This document shows positions 16,500-56,081 of a DNA stretch of 64,000 bases, one piece after another. Within the stretch, counting starts at the first letter, position 1. Every line of letters begins with the position of its first letter. Under the pieces are notes generated by a model. It was not told the origin of the DNA. It did no database searches and was given only the letters and a program-made list of their open reading frames with translations. A program made the position numbers and the translations under genes. This stretch comes from Aestuariimicrobium kwangyangense DSM 21549. Lineage in GTDB: Bacteria > Actinomycetota > Actinomycetes > Propionibacteriales > Propionibacteriaceae. The stretch is from contig NZ_ATXE01000001.1 of assembly GCF_000421525.1 (NCBI RefSeq), positions 1-64,000 on the forward strand. Direction: 5' to 3'.

Positions 16500-16574
16500 G
16501 TCCAGAAATGGCCACCAGATCGACCAGGGCGGCTGTTTCGGGGCACTTGGGTGATCCTGGGTCCAATTCTGGAC
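16500..16574. repeat. Inverted-end intergenic element 3 (75 bp)
   Basis: The ends are GTCCAGAAATGG and, inverted, GTCCAGAATTGG, with CAT/ATG flanks extending the symmetry by 3 bp. It lies upstream of trpG and downstream of the DUF881 gene (both minus). Confidence 0.9.
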
Positions 16575-16633
16575 ATGCGGGACGGGTGCCTCGAGTCAGG
16601 GGTGGAGCCCCCGCATGCCGCTGACACGCCTGG

Positions 16634-17464
16634 TCAGGGGATGGGTTTCGCGTGGCTGAGGGTCGTGGAGCCGGTGTAGGCGGGCATGGTCACCCGGCCG
16701 ACGTCCGCCTGCTTCCATCCCAACTGGTAGCGATCGGCGTACTGCTTGTAGATGCGCACCCCGTCGGAGGTGTCGAGCGCGGTGATCAACTGCCCCGGGT
16801 CGCCGATGGCGACGATCTCGTAGGGCGGCGCGTAGGGGATGCCGTGCAGCACCACCGAGTTGCCCACGCACTTCACCCCGGTGGTCGAGATGACTCGTTG
16901 TCCTTGGATCGTCATCGCCTCGGCACCGGCCGCCCAGAACAGGTTCACCACCAGCTGGATGTCCTGCTGGTGCACCACCAGCAGGTCCTCGTCCACCCCG
17001 ACCGGCTGCACCGACAGTGGTGCATCCGTGAGGGTGACCTTCACGGCCGGGCCGCTGACCGCCGTGGCCCCGGCGTCGAGTGAGGCCTGCTCCACCTGGG
17101 CCGCCAGTTGGGGATTGCCGGCGTCGGCCCTCGACAGTGCGTCCACGTCCTTGCGCAGGGCCCCGAGTTGGGTCTGGAGGTTCTTGTTGGTGTCGGCCTG
17201 CGCCCTCACCAGGTCGACCAGATCGGTGTTGCGTCCCGCCCTCAGGTCGCTGCCGTGGGAGGTGATGGCGCCGATGGTGGCCATCAGCGTCGCGATGGCG
17301 ATCACCCCGACGGTCGCCACTCGACCCAGGCGTGTGCTGCGTCGTCGTCGTTCCCGTACCCGCGCCCACCGGACCGCGCGGACGATCCGTCGACCGACCG
17401 AGCGGGCTGCCGGACGCACCACGGAGTGGTGGTGCCCGGTGACCAGTTCGTCCGGCTCGCTCAT
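16634..17464 (-). CDS. DUF881-family membrane protein
   Basis: A 276-aa protein: basic cytoplasmic N-terminus (about 1-48), one transmembrane helix (about 49-70), a coiled-coil-like stretch (about 80-115) and a DUF881 domain with GVKCVGNSVVLHGIPYAPPYEIVAIGDP. The ATG at 17464 follows GAGGGAG. It is the counterpart of the gene between crgA and trpG in mycobacteria (Rv0012). Location and topology suggest a role in division or the envelope; the biochemical function is unknown. Confidence 0.85.
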   Translation of the reverse strand: MSEPDELVTGHHHSVVRPAARSVGRRIVRAVRWARVRERRRRSTRLGRVATVGVIAIATLMATIGAITSHGSDLRAGRNTDLVDLVRAQADTNKNLQTQLGALRKDVDALSRADAGNPQLAAQVEQASLDAGATAVSGPAVKVTLTDAPLSVQPVGVDEDLLVVHQQDIQLVVNLFWAAGAEAMTIQGQRVISTTGVKCVGNSVVLHGIPYAPPYEIVAIGDPGQLITALDTSDGVRIYKQYADRYQLGWKQADVGRVTMPAYTGSTTLSHAKPIP

Positions 17465-17594
17465 CAAGCTCCCTCGGCGGTGGCGGGTGGCGCGAATGGG
17501 CGCCGCGCGTTGTCTCGACTAGGCTACCTGCAGCGTTGGCGCGGTCACCGGGAGTGGTGGTGCCGGCCGCGACACCAGACCAGGGAGGGACCCG

Positions 17595-17876
17595 GTGCCA
17601 GAGTCCAAGAGCCGAACGGCGGCCGACAAGAAGCGCAAGGCCAGCGACCAGGCCAAGCTCGCCGAGAAGAAGGCCACCCGCAGGAGTGGTCCCAGCGATC
17701 GCTCGTGGGTGCCGTGGGCCTTCATCCCCACCGGACTGCTGGGGGTGCTCTGGCTGGTGGTCTACTACATCACCGGTTACCGGATCCCCGTCATGCGTGA
17801 CCTGGGCGACTGGAACATCGTGATCGGCATCGGGCTGATGGCGATCGCGTTCTCCCTCACGACCCTGTGGAAGTAG
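17595..17876 (+). CDS. crgA: Cell division protein CrgA
   Basis: A 93-aa protein with a basic N-terminus and two transmembrane helices (about 41-60 and 70-90) joined by YRIPVMRDLGDWN, the typical CrgA layout. CrgA is an actinobacterial septum component that interacts with FtsZ, FtsQ, FtsI and CwsA. The GTG start at 17595 follows AGGGAGGGA. It is divergent from DUF881 and its end overlaps the convergent DinB-family gene by 20 bp. Confidence 0.92.
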   Translation: MPESKSRTAADKKRKASDQAKLAEKKATRRSGPSDRSWVPWAFIPTGLLGVLWLVVYYITGYRIPVMRDLGDWNIVIGIGLMAIAFSLTTLWK

Positions 17877-18462
17877 GCCCCGGCCTCCCCGGCGCCTGAT
17901 CGGCGAGCCGCTCGAGCTTCGTCCGATAGGCCTGCCAGTCGATCTCCGGCATGTTGTCGCCCTCCTTGCGGAGCCCGACCCGTCCGTCGATCAATTCGCG
18001 GACGATGTCCATGTGCCCGGCGTGGCGCGCCAGATCGGTGAGTGTGTGCACGGCGACCTGGTGCAGCGTCACCCGCTCCCGTCCCGTCCACCACGGCACC
18101 CGGCCGACGGCGTCAAGGGGCAGCGCCTCGAGGGTGGCGCGGGTGGTCTGCTGGGCGGCCCGCGCCAGCGCCCGGATGTCGTCGACCGTCTCGTCCGGCG
18201 TGCACCAGAAGTCGGCATTCAGCTCGGCACCCTCGTCGAACCAGGGCAGCGGCACCCCGCTGGGACGGTCGAAACAGTCGCCCAGGTAGCCGAGCTCGAT
18301 CGAGGCCGCGTGCTTGAGGATCCCGAGCAGGTTGGCACCGGTCGCGGTGTGCGGCCAGCGCAGCGCGTGCTCGTCCAGCCCGTCGAGCTTCGACAGCATG
18401 CCGTCGCGCGCCTCGTCCAGGTACTTGCGCAGGGTTTCAGCCGGGGTGGGGATCAGGTTCAT
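17857..18462 (-). CDS. DinB/DUF664-family protein
   Basis: A 201-aa four-helix-bundle protein of the DinB superfamily. LLGILKHAASIELGYLGDCF, LHQVAVHTLTDLARHAGHMDIVRELIDG supplies the expected metal-ligand histidines. Relatives include mycothiol- and bacillithiol-dependent enzymes. Its 3' end overlaps crgA by 20 bp tail to tail. The substrate is unknown. Confidence 0.85.
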   Translation of the reverse strand: MNLIPTPAETLRKYLDEARDGMLSKLDGLDEHALRWPHTATGANLLGILKHAASIELGYLGDCFDRPSGVPLPWFDEGAELNADFWCTPDETVDDIRALARAAQQTTRATLEALPLDAVGRVPWWTGRERVTLHQVAVHTLTDLARHAGHMDIVRELIDGRVGLRKEGDNMPEIDWQAYRTKLERLADQAPGRPGPTSTGS

Positions 18463-18478
18463 CCCACCAGCCTGCCAG

Positions 18479-20011
18479 TCAGCGGGGCTTGAGCAGCGGG
18501 AACAGGATCGTCTCGCGGATGCCGGCCCCCGACAACAGCATCATCAGCCGGTCGAGGCCCATGCCCAGACCGCCCATGGGTGGGGCGCCGAGTTCGAGGG
18601 CGGTCAGGAAGTCCTCGTCCAGTTGCATCGCCTCGACGTCACCGGCGGCCGCGGCAACCGACTGTGCGGTCAGCACGTCGCGTTGGATGACGGGGTCGAT
18701 CAGTTCCGAGAAGCCGGTGCCGCACTCGAACCCACCGATGATCAGGTCCCAGGCCTCGACCAGCCGGGGATCGTCCCGGTGGGGTCGAGCCAGGGGCTGG
18801 GCGATGGCCGGGAAGTCGCAGACGAAGGTGGGCTGCACCAGGGTCGGCTCGACGAGGTCGCCGAACAACTCGAGCACGATCTTGCCCTCGGACAGGCCCG
18901 GCTTGAGCTCGACACCATGCTCGGCGGCGATGGCCTCGAGCTCCTCCCGGGGGGTGTCGAGGGTGACCTCGCGCCCGAGCCGCTCCGAGAGCCCGGGGTA
19001 GACGCCCACCCAACGCCACTCGGCACCCAGGTCGATCACCTCCCCCTCGGGAGTGGTCACCTCCAGGCTGCCCACCGCCTCCGCCGCGCGCCGGATCACG
19101 GTCTGCAGCACCTCGGCGATGGTGAACTGGTTGCCCCACGACTGGTAGGCCTCCAGCATCGTGAACTCGGGGCTGTGGCTGGAGTCGATGCCCTCGTTGC
19201 GGAAGATTCGTCCCAGTTCGAAGACCCGGTCTGCACCGCCCACCATGGCCCGCTTGAGGTACAACTCGAGCGCGATCCGCAGGGTCATCGGCAGGTCGAA
19301 GGCATTGAGGTGGGTGCGGAAGGGACGCGCCGTCGCGCCTCCGTGGATGAGCTGCAGGGTGGGGGTCTCGACCTCCATGAATCCCAGCTCCTCCAAGGTG
19401 GAGCGGATGGATCGGGTGACCGCGGCGCGGCGGCGCACCATCTCGCGGGCCTCAGGGCGCACCACCAGGTCGGCATGGCGCTGGCGCACCCGCGACTCCT
19501 CGCTCAGTTCCTTGTGCAGCGTGGGCAGCGGACGAAGGGCCTTCGACGCCATCCGCCACTCGGCTGCCATCACCGACAGTTCACCCCGCTTGGACGAGAT
19601 CACCCGCCCCCGCACCCAGACGTGGTCGCCGAGGTCGACATCGGCCTTCCAGTCGGCCAGGGCCTGCTCACCCACCTCGGCCAACGAGAGCATCACCTGC
19701 AGACGTTCACCGTTGTCGGTCGGGGTGAAGCCGTCCTGCAGGGTGGCGAAGGCAAGCTTGCCGGTGTTGCGGATGAACACCACCCGTCCGCCGACGGAGA
19801 CCTCGTCGTCGGTCTCCTCACCGGCCTGCAGGTGGCCCCACGTCTCGCGGACCTGGGACAGCGTGTGGCTGCGCACCAGGTCGACCGGGTAGGCCTGACC
19901 ACCGGCGGCGAGGATGCGATCGCGCTTGTCGCGTCGCACCTGCATCTGCTCGTTGACCTCGGCAGCGGTGGGCTCCGGGGCGTCGGTGTGGGCCGTGGTC
20001 TGATCAGTCAC
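18479..20011 (-). CDS. lysS: Lysyl-tRNA synthetase, class II
   Basis: Charges tRNA-Lys; 510 aa. An N-terminal OB-fold anticodon domain (GRVVFIRNTGKLAFATLQDG) precedes the class II core: motif 1 MEVETPTLQ, motif 2 FRNEGIDSSHSPEFTMLEAY and motif 3 GLGMGLDRLMMLLSG. GTG at 20011 is 7 nt after TAGGCT (20019-20024), a leaderless arrangement. Upstream in-frame extension overlaps the promoter of the YbjQ-like gene and is rejected. Confidence 0.94.
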   Translation of the reverse strand: MTDQTTAHTDAPEPTAAEVNEQMQVRRDKRDRILAAGGQAYPVDLVRSHTLSQVRETWGHLQAGEETDDEVSVGGRVVFIRNTGKLAFATLQDGFTPTDNGERLQVMLSLAEVGEQALADWKADVDLGDHVWVRGRVISSKRGELSVMAAEWRMASKALRPLPTLHKELSEESRVRQRHADLVVRPEAREMVRRRAAVTRSIRSTLEELGFMEVETPTLQLIHGGATARPFRTHLNAFDLPMTLRIALELYLKRAMVGGADRVFELGRIFRNEGIDSSHSPEFTMLEAYQSWGNQFTIAEVLQTVIRRAAEAVGSLEVTTPEGEVIDLGAEWRWVGVYPGLSERLGREVTLDTPREELEAIAAEHGVELKPGLSEGKIVLELFGDLVEPTLVQPTFVCDFPAIAQPLARPHRDDPRLVEAWDLIIGGFECGTGFSELIDPVIQRDVLTAQSVAAAAGDVEAMQLDEDFLTALELGAPPMGGLGMGLDRLMMLLSGAGIRETILFPLLKPR

Positions 20012-35043: not shown

Positions 35044-35052
35044 TGTGGACAA
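35044..35052 (-). promoter_or_regulatory. Isolated DnaA box
   Basis: TGTGGACAA (minus-strand TTGTCCACA) is a perfect actinobacterial DnaA box ending 2 bp before element 8. A one-mismatch copy (TGTGGACAG) lies inside that element. Confidence 0.5.
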
Positions 35053-35054
35053 CT

Positions 35055-35129
35055 GTCCAGAAGTGGTCCCGGCTGTGGACAGTTCGCCTGCTCCACGGCC
35101 CAGCGGGGCATTCGGGGCCACTTCTGGAC
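35055..35129. repeat. Inverted-end intergenic element 8 (75 bp)
   Basis: Both ends are GTCCAGAAGTGG, so the A-to-G change at position 9 occurs in both arms. It lies between the start of the AbiEi/DUF559 gene and the end of the M81 gene (both minus). Confidence 0.92.
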
Positions 35130-53773: not shown

Positions 53774-54079
53774 TCAGCTCTTGACGAGCCTGGTGATGGC
53801 ATTCATGGCCTCGGCGATCTTGGCGTCGGCCTCCCCGCCTCCGTGGCGTACCGCCTCGGAGACGCAGTGGCTGATGTGCTCGTCAAGCAACGCGAGGGCA
53901 AGTGACTCCAGGGCGCTGGTCATCGCCGACACCTGGGTGAGGATGTCGATGCAGTACTTGTCGTCCTCGACCATCCGCTGAAGACCGCGGGCCTGACCCT
54001 CGATCCGCTTGAGACGGCGCAGGTGCGCGTCCTTGTTGTCGTGGTAGCCGTGGTGATGGGTGACTACGTCTTCGCTCAT
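53774..54079 (-). CDS. csoR: Copper-sensing repressor CsoR
   Basis: A 101-aa CsoR/RcnR-family regulator. The Cu(I) ligands C43, H68 and C72 have the spacing (25 and 4) of CsoR. The His-rich N-terminus HHHGYH may add metal binding. AAGGAGG precedes ATG at 54079. It represses its own operon with copZ and copA through the palindrome just upstream and releases it when Cu(I) binds. Confidence 0.95.
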   Translation of the reverse strand: MSEDVVTHHHGYHDNKDAHLRRLKRIEGQARGLQRMVEDDKYCIDILTQVSAMTSALESLALALLDEHISHCVSEAVRHGGGEADAKIAEAMNAITRLVKS

Positions 54080-54102: not shown

Positions 54103-54119
54103 ATACCCCTCTGGGGTAT
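54103..54119. promoter_or_regulatory. CsoR operator
   Basis: ATACCCCTCTGGGGTAT is a perfect 7+3+7 palindrome of the CsoR G-tract type, 24 bp upstream of csoR. A degenerate second copy at 54128-54144 matches only one half (GGGGTAT). Confidence 0.9.
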
Positions 54120-54302: not shown

Positions 54303-54580
54303 TGTGGACAACCACAGGCCCCCGCGCCCCGGAATGGAGGGCCGTCCCATCCCTGCCGCCACTTCGGGTGACCGGCCCGACCCTCGAAACGCGTAGAACT
54401 GCGACGGGAGAGTTTTCTCACGATTCCGAAGAAATGTTGATCGTGCCTTGTCAGCCCGCTGTTGGCCGACCAAGGTGAACGGGTTGTCAACAGCCGGGGC
54501 CTCGACACGCCGGGCTTGTGCACAGTTGTCCACACGCTGCCCACAGGGTGCACGGATTGTCCACATCCCCCTGTGGACAA
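54303..54580. other. DnaA-box cluster upstream of dnaB
   Basis: The gap between csoR and dnaB (about 660 bp) has no convincing gene. It holds four perfect TTGTCCACA boxes: 54303-54311 (minus), 54526-54534, 54557-54565 and 54572-54580 (minus). One-mismatch copies lie at 54484-54492 (TTGTCAACA) and 54516-54524 (TTGTGCACA). A locally A+T-richer stretch (about 54400-54445) lies between the first and second boxes. It may be a DnaA titration or regulatory locus, or part of an origin; dnaA and dnaN are not in the window. Confidence 0.8.
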
Positions 54581-54740
54581 CTTCTCCCCCGACCGGTTGC
54601 GCTCTCACCCCCCCGTGCGTAGCGTGTGCGCAGTCCGTACGCGGGCCGCCCATGGCCTGTGAGCCAGAAGTGTCAGACCCCAGTTGGACCATGGGGCCAT
54701 CCGATCCGCAGGAGTGCGGCGGCAGAGCAGGAGGTGCCCC

Positions 54741-56081
54741 GTGAGCCAGGACGATTTCGGTGAGGGTGGCATCGACCGCACACCACCCCAGGACCTGGCG
54801 GCCGAGCAGAGCGTGCTCGGGGCCATGCTGATGAGCAAGGACGCCATCGCCGAGGTCACCGAGATCCTGCAACCACGTGACTTCTACCGTCCGAACCATG
54901 AGGCGATCTTCGACGCGATCGTCGAGCTCTTCGCCCGCGGTGAGCCCGCCGACCCCATCACCGTCGCCGATCTGATGAACAAGAAGGGCACTCTGGGCCG
55001 AGCCGGCGGACACGTCTACCTCGTCGACCTGCTGCAGAGCGTGTCGGTCGCCGCCAACGCGGTCTACTACGCCGAGATCGTGCGGGACAAGGCAACCCTG
55101 CGGCGTCTGGTCGAGGCGTCGATCAAGATCGCCCAGATGAGTTACGCCGGTCAGGGCGACGTGAACGACATCGTGGACTCCGCCCAGCAGGAGGTCTACA
55201 ACGTCTCGACGGGCAAGGTCGCCGACGACTACCAACCGTTGTCGATGTTGATCGAGCCGACCATCGACGAGATGGAGGCCATCGAGTCCCGCGATGGCGT
55301 GATGAGCGGGGTGCCCACCGGGTTCCAGGAGATGGACGAGTTGACCAACGGCCTCCACCCCGGGCAGATGATCATCGTCGCGGCACGTCCGGCGGTGGGG
55401 AAGTCGACGTTCGCCCTCGACCTCGCCCGTGCCTGCTCGATCAAACATCGTCTGACCAGCGTCTTCTTCTCCTTGGAGATGGGACGCACCGAGATCGTGA
55501 TGCGGCTGCTCTCCGCCGAGGCGCAGGTGGCCCTGCACGCCATCCGTTCGGGCAAGCTGAACGACCAGGACTGGGACCGGGTGGTCGCCAAGACCCAGCA
55601 GATCTCGGAGGCGCCGCTGTTCATCGACGACTCCCCCAACCTGACGATGATGGAGATCCGCGCCAAGGCGCGCCGCCTCAAGCAGCGCCACGACCTCAAG
55701 CTGGTGATCATCGACTACATGCAGTTGATGAGCTCGGGCAAGAAGGTCGAGAGCCGCCAACTCGAGGTCTCGGAGTTCTCCCGCCAGATCAAGCTGTTGG
55801 CCAAGGAACTCGAGATCCCCGTGATCGCGCTCTCCCAGCTCAACCGAGGTCCCGAGCAGCGCACCGACAAGCGTCCACAGATGAGCGACCTGCGTGAATC
55901 GGGCTCCTTGGAGCAGGACGCCGACATGGTCATCCTGCTGCACCGCGAAGACATCTACGACAAGGAGTCACGCGTCGGTGAGGCCGACCTGATCGTGGCC
56001 AAGCACCGCAACGGGCCCACCGCAACGGTGCCGGTCGCCTTCCAGGGCCACTACTCACGCTTCGTCGACATGCAGCGCTGA
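54741..56081 (+). CDS. dnaB: Replicative DNA helicase DnaB
   Basis: Hexameric fork helicase of 446 aa. The N-terminal DnaB domain (about 12-115, PPQDLAAEQSVLGAML) and RecA-like ATPase show Walker A ARPAVGKST (K221), Walker B LVIIDYMQLM and SQLNRGPEQR with the arginine finger region. It has no intein. GTG at 54741 has AGGAGG 8 nt upstream; the upstream in-frame start overlaps the DnaA-box gap and is rejected. DnaA boxes before it suggest DnaA-linked expression. Confidence 0.95.
   Translation: MSQDDFGEGGIDRTPPQDLAAEQSVLGAMLMSKDAIAEVTEILQPRDFYRPNHEAIFDAIVELFARGEPADPITVADLMNKKGTLGRAGGHVYLVDLLQSVSVAANAVYYAEIVRDKATLRRLVEASIKIAQMSYAGQGDVNDIVDSAQQEVYNVSTGKVADDYQPLSMLIEPTIDEMEAIESRDGVMSGVPTGFQEMDELTNGLHPGQMIIVAARPAVGKSTFALDLARACSIKHRLTSVFFSLEMGRTEIVMRLLSAEAQVALHAIRSGKLNDQDWDRVVAKTQQISEAPLFIDDSPNLTMMEIRAKARRLKQRHDLKLVIIDYMQLMSSGKKVESRQLEVSEFSRQIKLLAKELEIPVIALSQLNRGPEQRTDKRPQMSDLRESGSLEQDADMVILLHREDIYDKESRVGEADLIVAKHRNGPTATVPVAFQGHYSRFVDMQR

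Follow-up and report, generated by a model that had tools for sequence, protein, structure and literature searches.

Why should the gene-free gap in front of dnaB, the gene of the replicative helicase, be crowded with DnaA boxes in a bacterium whose dnaA gene lies elsewhere? A preliminary description of this locus offered three roles for the cluster: a DnaA-controlled dnaB promoter, an accessory replication origin, or a DnaA titration site comparable to datA. The first is well supported by the analysis presented here, the second is not supported, and titration survives only as a possible secondary effect. The bacterium belongs to the Propionibacteriaceae and stands close to Tessaracoccus; its DnaB is 80% identical to that of Tessaracoccus sp. 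SD287. Below, the window is the whole 64,000-nucleotide stretch of DNA that was analysed, and C1 is the contig that carries it.

The DnaA-box cluster and its surroundings

The gap between csoR (start at 54079) and dnaB (GTG at 54741) measures 661 bp, close to the 660 bp first reported, and holds the entire cluster (Table 1). All four perfect copies of TTGTCCACA and both one-mismatch copies previously claimed within about 280 bp were located there, between 54303 and 54580. With up to one mismatch allowed, the window as a whole contains an ordinary number of boxes (12, against 9.4 ± 2.8 in shuffled sequence), half of which are packed into 278 bp. Six boxes in 300 bp have a Poisson chance of about 1e-12 given the background of 119 such boxes in the first 1.2 Mb of C1, a region in which no other cluster is as dense. 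Genome-wide, perfect boxes number 43, whereas the reversed pattern occurs 15 times.

The A+T-richer stretch noticed earlier is also real: positions 54386-54435 have a GC content of 48% in a window of 69% GC, which places them among the lowest 0.13% of 50-bp windows. Family-mean GC falls to 0.53-0.56 between -160 and -80 relative to the proximal box. An Rfam search of the csoR-dnaB gap for structured RNA returned no match. Mycobacteria have a DnaA site at Rv0010c-Rv0011c; in the corresponding region on the crgA side of the window, a search of 16500-18500 for boxes with up to one mismatch found none.

Table 1. Coordinates of the features discussed. Positions without a prefix refer to the window; C1 to C4 denote contigs.
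Feature	Position	Strand	Remarks
csoR-like copper-sensing repressor gene	53774..54079	-	Pfam Trns_repr_metal 6.6e-30; divergent neighbour, outside the module
Palindrome ATACCCC-TCT-GGGGTAT, probable CsoR operator	54103..54119		From sequence; similar palindrome in aligned relatives
Distal DnaA box, perfect, TTGTCCACA	54303-54311	-	Sequence scan
A+T-richer block	54386-54454		Separates distal from proximal boxes
Conserved CCTWGYCA element, here as CCTTGTCAG	54446..54454	+	Inside the A+T-richer block
DnaA box, 1 mismatch, TTGTCAACA	54484-54492	+	Sequence scan
DnaA box, 1 mismatch, TTGTGCACA	54516-54524	+	Sequence scan
DnaA box, perfect, TTGTCCACA	54526-54534	+	1 bp past box 54516-54524
Weak DnaA box, 2 mismatches, CTGCCCACA	54537-54545	+	In tandem run, 2 bp past box 54526-54534
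DnaA box, perfect, TTGTCCACA	54557-54565	+	Left half of head-to-head proximal pair, 6-bp gap
Proximal DnaA box, perfect, TTGTCCACA	54572-54580	-	Closest box to promoter
Predicted dnaB -35, TTGCGC	54597..54602	+	16 bp past proximal box; phased family-wide
Predicted dnaB -10, TAGCGT	54620..54625	+	17-bp spacer
dnaB, replicative helicase	54741..56081	+	Pfam DnaB_C 4e-107, DnaB 1.5e-34
dnaA	C1:237581-238921		Two perfect boxes upstream; 183 kb from dnaB cluster
oriC, in the 420-bp spacer downstream of dnaA	C1:239107-239330		Boxes at 239107, 239201, 239255
RecQ-like helicase gene	C1:239364-241893		Opposite strand; splits the usual dnaA-dnaN interval
dnaN	C1:241937
Direct TTGTCCACA pairs	35044-35082; C1:1358506; C2:84185; C2:530831; C3:172929; C3:343695; C4:339012		Also in relatives
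Inverted-repeat copies	1956, 7228, 16500, 20919, 24542, 29164, 32324, 35055, 36796, 41778, 49094, 51059; C1:67053, 77068

Conservation of the boxes with dnaB

Absence of the cluster from the dnaB upstream regions of close relatives had been named as the result that would speak against its significance. That result was not obtained: among 90 such regions of 700 bp each, drawn from 90 genomes and 25 genera of the family, 89 contain at least one box (25 of 25 genera) and 81 contain two or more. Boxes total 275 in these 90 loci, against 13 for the reversed pattern, and only three were found in about 84 kb of dnaB coding and downstream DNA from the first 30 family loci. A minus-strand box some 215-270 bp upstream of the proximal one, as seen here, recurs across the family. 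Enrichment extends to members of the class outside this order (57 boxes against 8 reversed) and to a second family within the class (66 against 6), and fades outside the class (14 against 4), with 27 dnaB loci in each set. Named examples of dnaB genes with boxes include those of Streptomyces, Kitasatospora, Nocardioides, Arthrobacter and Nocardia.

The gap is shared with the divergent csoR-copZ-copA copper genes, which the boxes might control instead of dnaB; about 220 bp separate csoR from the distal box at 54303. A csoR-like gene, however, was found beside dnaB at only 11 of 30 family loci, none being seen within 1.5 kb at the other 19, while boxes are present at 29 of the same 30. Furthermore, csoR has an operator-like palindrome of its own, and the phased promoter described below is directed toward dnaB. 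Because the boxes persist while the upstream neighbour varies among relatives, the cluster belongs to dnaB, and control of the copper genes was rejected as barely credible.

Helical phasing to the predicted dnaB promoter

At family loci, the box nearest to dnaB mostly occupies the minus strand, with the pattern TTG...N17...TANNNT a set distance downstream. The dnaB promoter was called from this TTG/TANNNT pattern and from comparison among relatives; a scan of the dnaB upstream region for an E. coli-type consensus promoter found none. A sigma70-like promoter in phase with the minus-strand box occurs at 53 of 83 loci, representing 21 genera, as against a mean of 2.2 and a maximum of 10 loci in 200 trials with shuffled downstream sequence. 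By the rules used, the remaining 30 of the 83 minus-strand-box loci lack a phased promoter, as do most loci of the second family. Gaps between box and -35 show a main peak at 5-7 bp and lesser peaks at 15-16 and 26 bp, that is, one and two helical turns further away. Counted once per genus, the phase gives R = 0.69 (n = 48), and p-values attached to it overstate significance even in this form, relatives not being independent. The repetition of one-turn steps across genera is the stronger argument. The same layout of a box, 4-8 bp and TTG-N17/18-TANNNT also occurs in Streptomyces, Kitasatospora and Arthrobacter, where the gap is 4-6 bp, and with a weaker box in Nocardia.

Spacing among the boxes themselves is similarly restricted. 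In the 39 head-to-head pairs found at the 90 family loci, the two boxes start 14 bp apart in 35 cases and 15 bp apart in 4. The remaining spacings between a plus-strand and a minus-strand box are 23-25, 35-37, 45-46 and 55-58 bp, in steps of about 10.5 bp; the phase is R = 0.89, or 0.81 when the 14/15 class is removed. For the distal-to-proximal spacing alone the phase is weaker, with R = 0.40 at 10.5 bp and a higher value near 11 bp, and no argument here depends on it.

This geometry bears on the suggestion of a datA-like site, at which the cluster, shortly after replication of the origin region, would soak up DnaA or promote hydrolysis of ATP-DnaA and thereby limit re-initiation. Several features suit such a role: no other cluster in the 1.2 Mb is as dense, its boxes are at least as many as those of oriC, and on the contig it shares with dnaA the two are a modest 183 kb apart, a distance of about 130-640 kb in several closed relatives. 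Its tandem boxes, 1-2 bp apart, also resemble the close pairs preferred by E. coli DnaA (PMC11317965). A sink, however, needs neither attachment to dnaB nor helical phase with its promoter, both of which are seen, and the one to three boxes that many relatives keep would make a weak one. The datA locus of E. coli is likewise a compact cluster of DnaA boxes away from oriC, but it depends on IHF and is not known to be tied to a dnaB promoter, whereas the present cluster goes with dnaB and keeps phase with the promoter of that gene. Titration as the primary function is thus unlikely, although it is possible as a by-product of a control region for dnaB.

The CCTWGTCA element

The A+T-richer block contains a second conserved element, CCTWGTCA. 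In its broader form, CCTWGYCA, it occurs in 56 of the 90 family upstream regions and in 21 genera, the reversed pattern occurring 6 times. Mostly it lies 114-116 bp upstream of the proximal box, and otherwise mainly 94, 103-105, 126-127 or 137 bp; these values follow helical steps and keep the same phase. Two Arthrobacter loci have the element 105 bp from the proximal box. It was matched to no known factor. The extended form CCTWGTCAG is also found within the spacer downstream of dnaA, which corresponds to oriC, in three of 28 family genomes, and in two of these three a DnaA box lies about 12 bp away.

oriC lies elsewhere on the contig

The genes dnaA and dnaN, whose absence from the window was pointed out at the start, lie farther along C1. 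The spacer downstream of dnaA contains three boxes, the last of which (C1:239255) runs into TTCCACAGCAGAGAAGACGAAGACGACAACACATAC; a run resembling an unwinding module, TTCCACAGCAGAGAAGACGAAGACGAC, was noted there. A DnaA-box/trio unwinding module has been described in other bacteria, and the C1:239255 box with the run that follows presumably resembles it. The dnaB cluster is therefore not the missing oriC, since a dnaA-linked oriC-like region lies elsewhere.

Could the cluster nevertheless act as an accessory or relocated origin? Its boxes adjoin an A+T-richer block that is also apparent in the family-average GC, the canonical dnaA-dnaN interval is interrupted by the RecQ-like helicase gene, and both the 9-mer and, in the three relatives mentioned above, CCTWGTCAG are shared with oriC. 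However, the trio-like run after the C1:239255 box has no counterpart visible by eye beside the dnaB boxes, and the A+T-richer block still has about 50% GC. GC skew is weak throughout the first 1.2 Mb of C1. The skew switch that an origin at 54 kb would predict is absent, the cumulative minimum being near 335 kb, about 98 kb from dnaA. Phase with the dnaB promoter would also be unneeded for an origin. With oriC 183 kb away, an origin at dnaB appears highly improbable.

Other box sites and repeats in the genome

The same 9-mer also occurs as direct pairs of the form TTGTCCACA-N19..22-TTGTCCACA, of which 48 were found in 24 of 116 family genomes and none with the reversed control. They are often located upstream of genes for ComEA-like (SLBB+HHH) proteins, SSB, DUF4244 pilins and RecA, and also of ComF-like, M23 peptidase and DUF559 genes. 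These pairs are candidates for a competence regulon with a DnaA-box-like operator.

A box alone is no proof of DnaA, because some TTGTCCACA sites in this genome, namely the direct pairs before DNA-uptake genes, may serve another protein. The occurrence of direct pairs, about 30 bp apart, before family genes of the comEA, ssb, pilin and recA types suggests either a second reader or a wider role of DnaA, and such a protein might also read the boxes at dnaB. The layout at dnaB is different, however, with its head-to-head pair, tandem boxes and tolerance of TTATCCACA, and in mycobacteria it is DnaA itself that is bound upstream of dnaB (PMC7738170). A reader other than DnaA at dnaB is thus very unlikely.

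Two further observations concern other parts of the genome. The second densest box cluster in the first 1.2 Mb of C1 consists of four boxes (up to one mismatch) in about 220 bp at C1:326144-326362, inside a DUF2332 gene. Separately, an inverted repeat, GTCCAGAAnTGGnCC...GGnCCAnTTCTGGAC, is present in 14 copies of constant length (74-75 bp) with an unconserved interior. All 14 lie within about 75 kb and are the sole copies in the 2.99 Mb genome. The repeat is missing from 55 of 57 relatives, and each of the other two yields one match, in which the core differs. A local DNA-organising protein may use these repeats as paired sites.

Probable control of dnaB by DnaA

The reading to be preferred, and a quite probable one, is that the cluster forms a DnaA-regulated control region of dnaB, the proximal pair of boxes being phased to the promoter and most likely activating it. 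Conservation that tracks dnaB, phased spacing and the binding of DnaA at dnaB in mycobacteria all support it. For this species we infer binding of DnaA at the cluster, use of the predicted promoter, activation and looping. In this mechanism, DnaA would occupy the boxes upstream of dnaB, and the head-to-head pair, which always presents the same helical face a short way before the -35 element, would allow it to regulate transcription, so that helicase supply would keep step with DnaA. One nucleoprotein complex is probably formed with the help of the distal box and the CCTWGTCA element, either by looping or through a second factor.

The stretch immediately before the -35 element is where activators in contact with RNA polymerase are usually placed. 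Activation is considered the most likely effect because the phased proximal boxes are positioned there, off the core promoter. Two other effects are possible, repression and a switch that depends on the bound nucleotide, as at E. coli nrdAB.

Precedents exist for DnaA acting on this gene. Binding upstream of dnaB was detected in Mycobacterium tuberculosis with purified DnaA (IDAP-seq) and in M. smegmatis with tagged DnaA (ChIP-seq), and the M. tuberculosis DnaA variant I282T, whose binding at dnaB is reduced, uniquely shows lowered dnaB expression (PMC7738170). This mycobacterial site (Rv0057 region) shares with the present one the gene, the class and the upstream position; there binding was measured and linked to dnaB expression (PMC7738170). 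The arrangement described here, a predicted DnaA-binding region, comprises four perfect boxes, of which the proximal two form a head-to-head pair in clean promoter phase, together with the additional distal box and CCTWGTCA element. In Caulobacter, dnaB belongs to the DnaA regulon (PMC8203912). The promoters of E. coli nrdAB and polA and of the Caulobacter regulon likewise have boxes upstream of replication genes with DnaA as activator (PMC8203912, PMC11317965), but they come from other phyla and have other box arrangements. The literature searched yielded no description of a class-wide phase of boxes to the -35 element or of the CCTWGTCA element at dnaB, and no DnaA-binding study of Streptomyces dnaB. 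The finding is largely of a known kind, DnaA action at dnaB being known already; the apparently new part is the helix-phased, class-wide layout with the CCTWGTCA element.

More tentatively, and with somewhat less than even confidence, Actinobacteria may share an ancient helix-phased DnaA module at dnaB, in which DnaA and a replication factor acting at CCTWGTCA, a site that would also mark some oriCs, would drive helicase synthesis by contacting RNA polymerase directly. The proposed order of this module would be a distal box, an A+T-rich block with CCTWGTCA, tandem and head-to-head boxes, and a -35 element at about 6, 16 or 26 bp. If true, it would constitute a feed-forward switch in which the initiator drives synthesis of the helicase.

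How DnaA activates transcription is described as poorly understood (PMC11317965). In many genera the boxes keep to one helical face, with the -35 element about 6, 16 or 26 bp away, which makes a contact model directly testable. The CCTWGTCA element points to a second site, common to some oriCs, and the arrangement as a whole suggests that in this class the amount of replicative helicase available is linked to DnaA.
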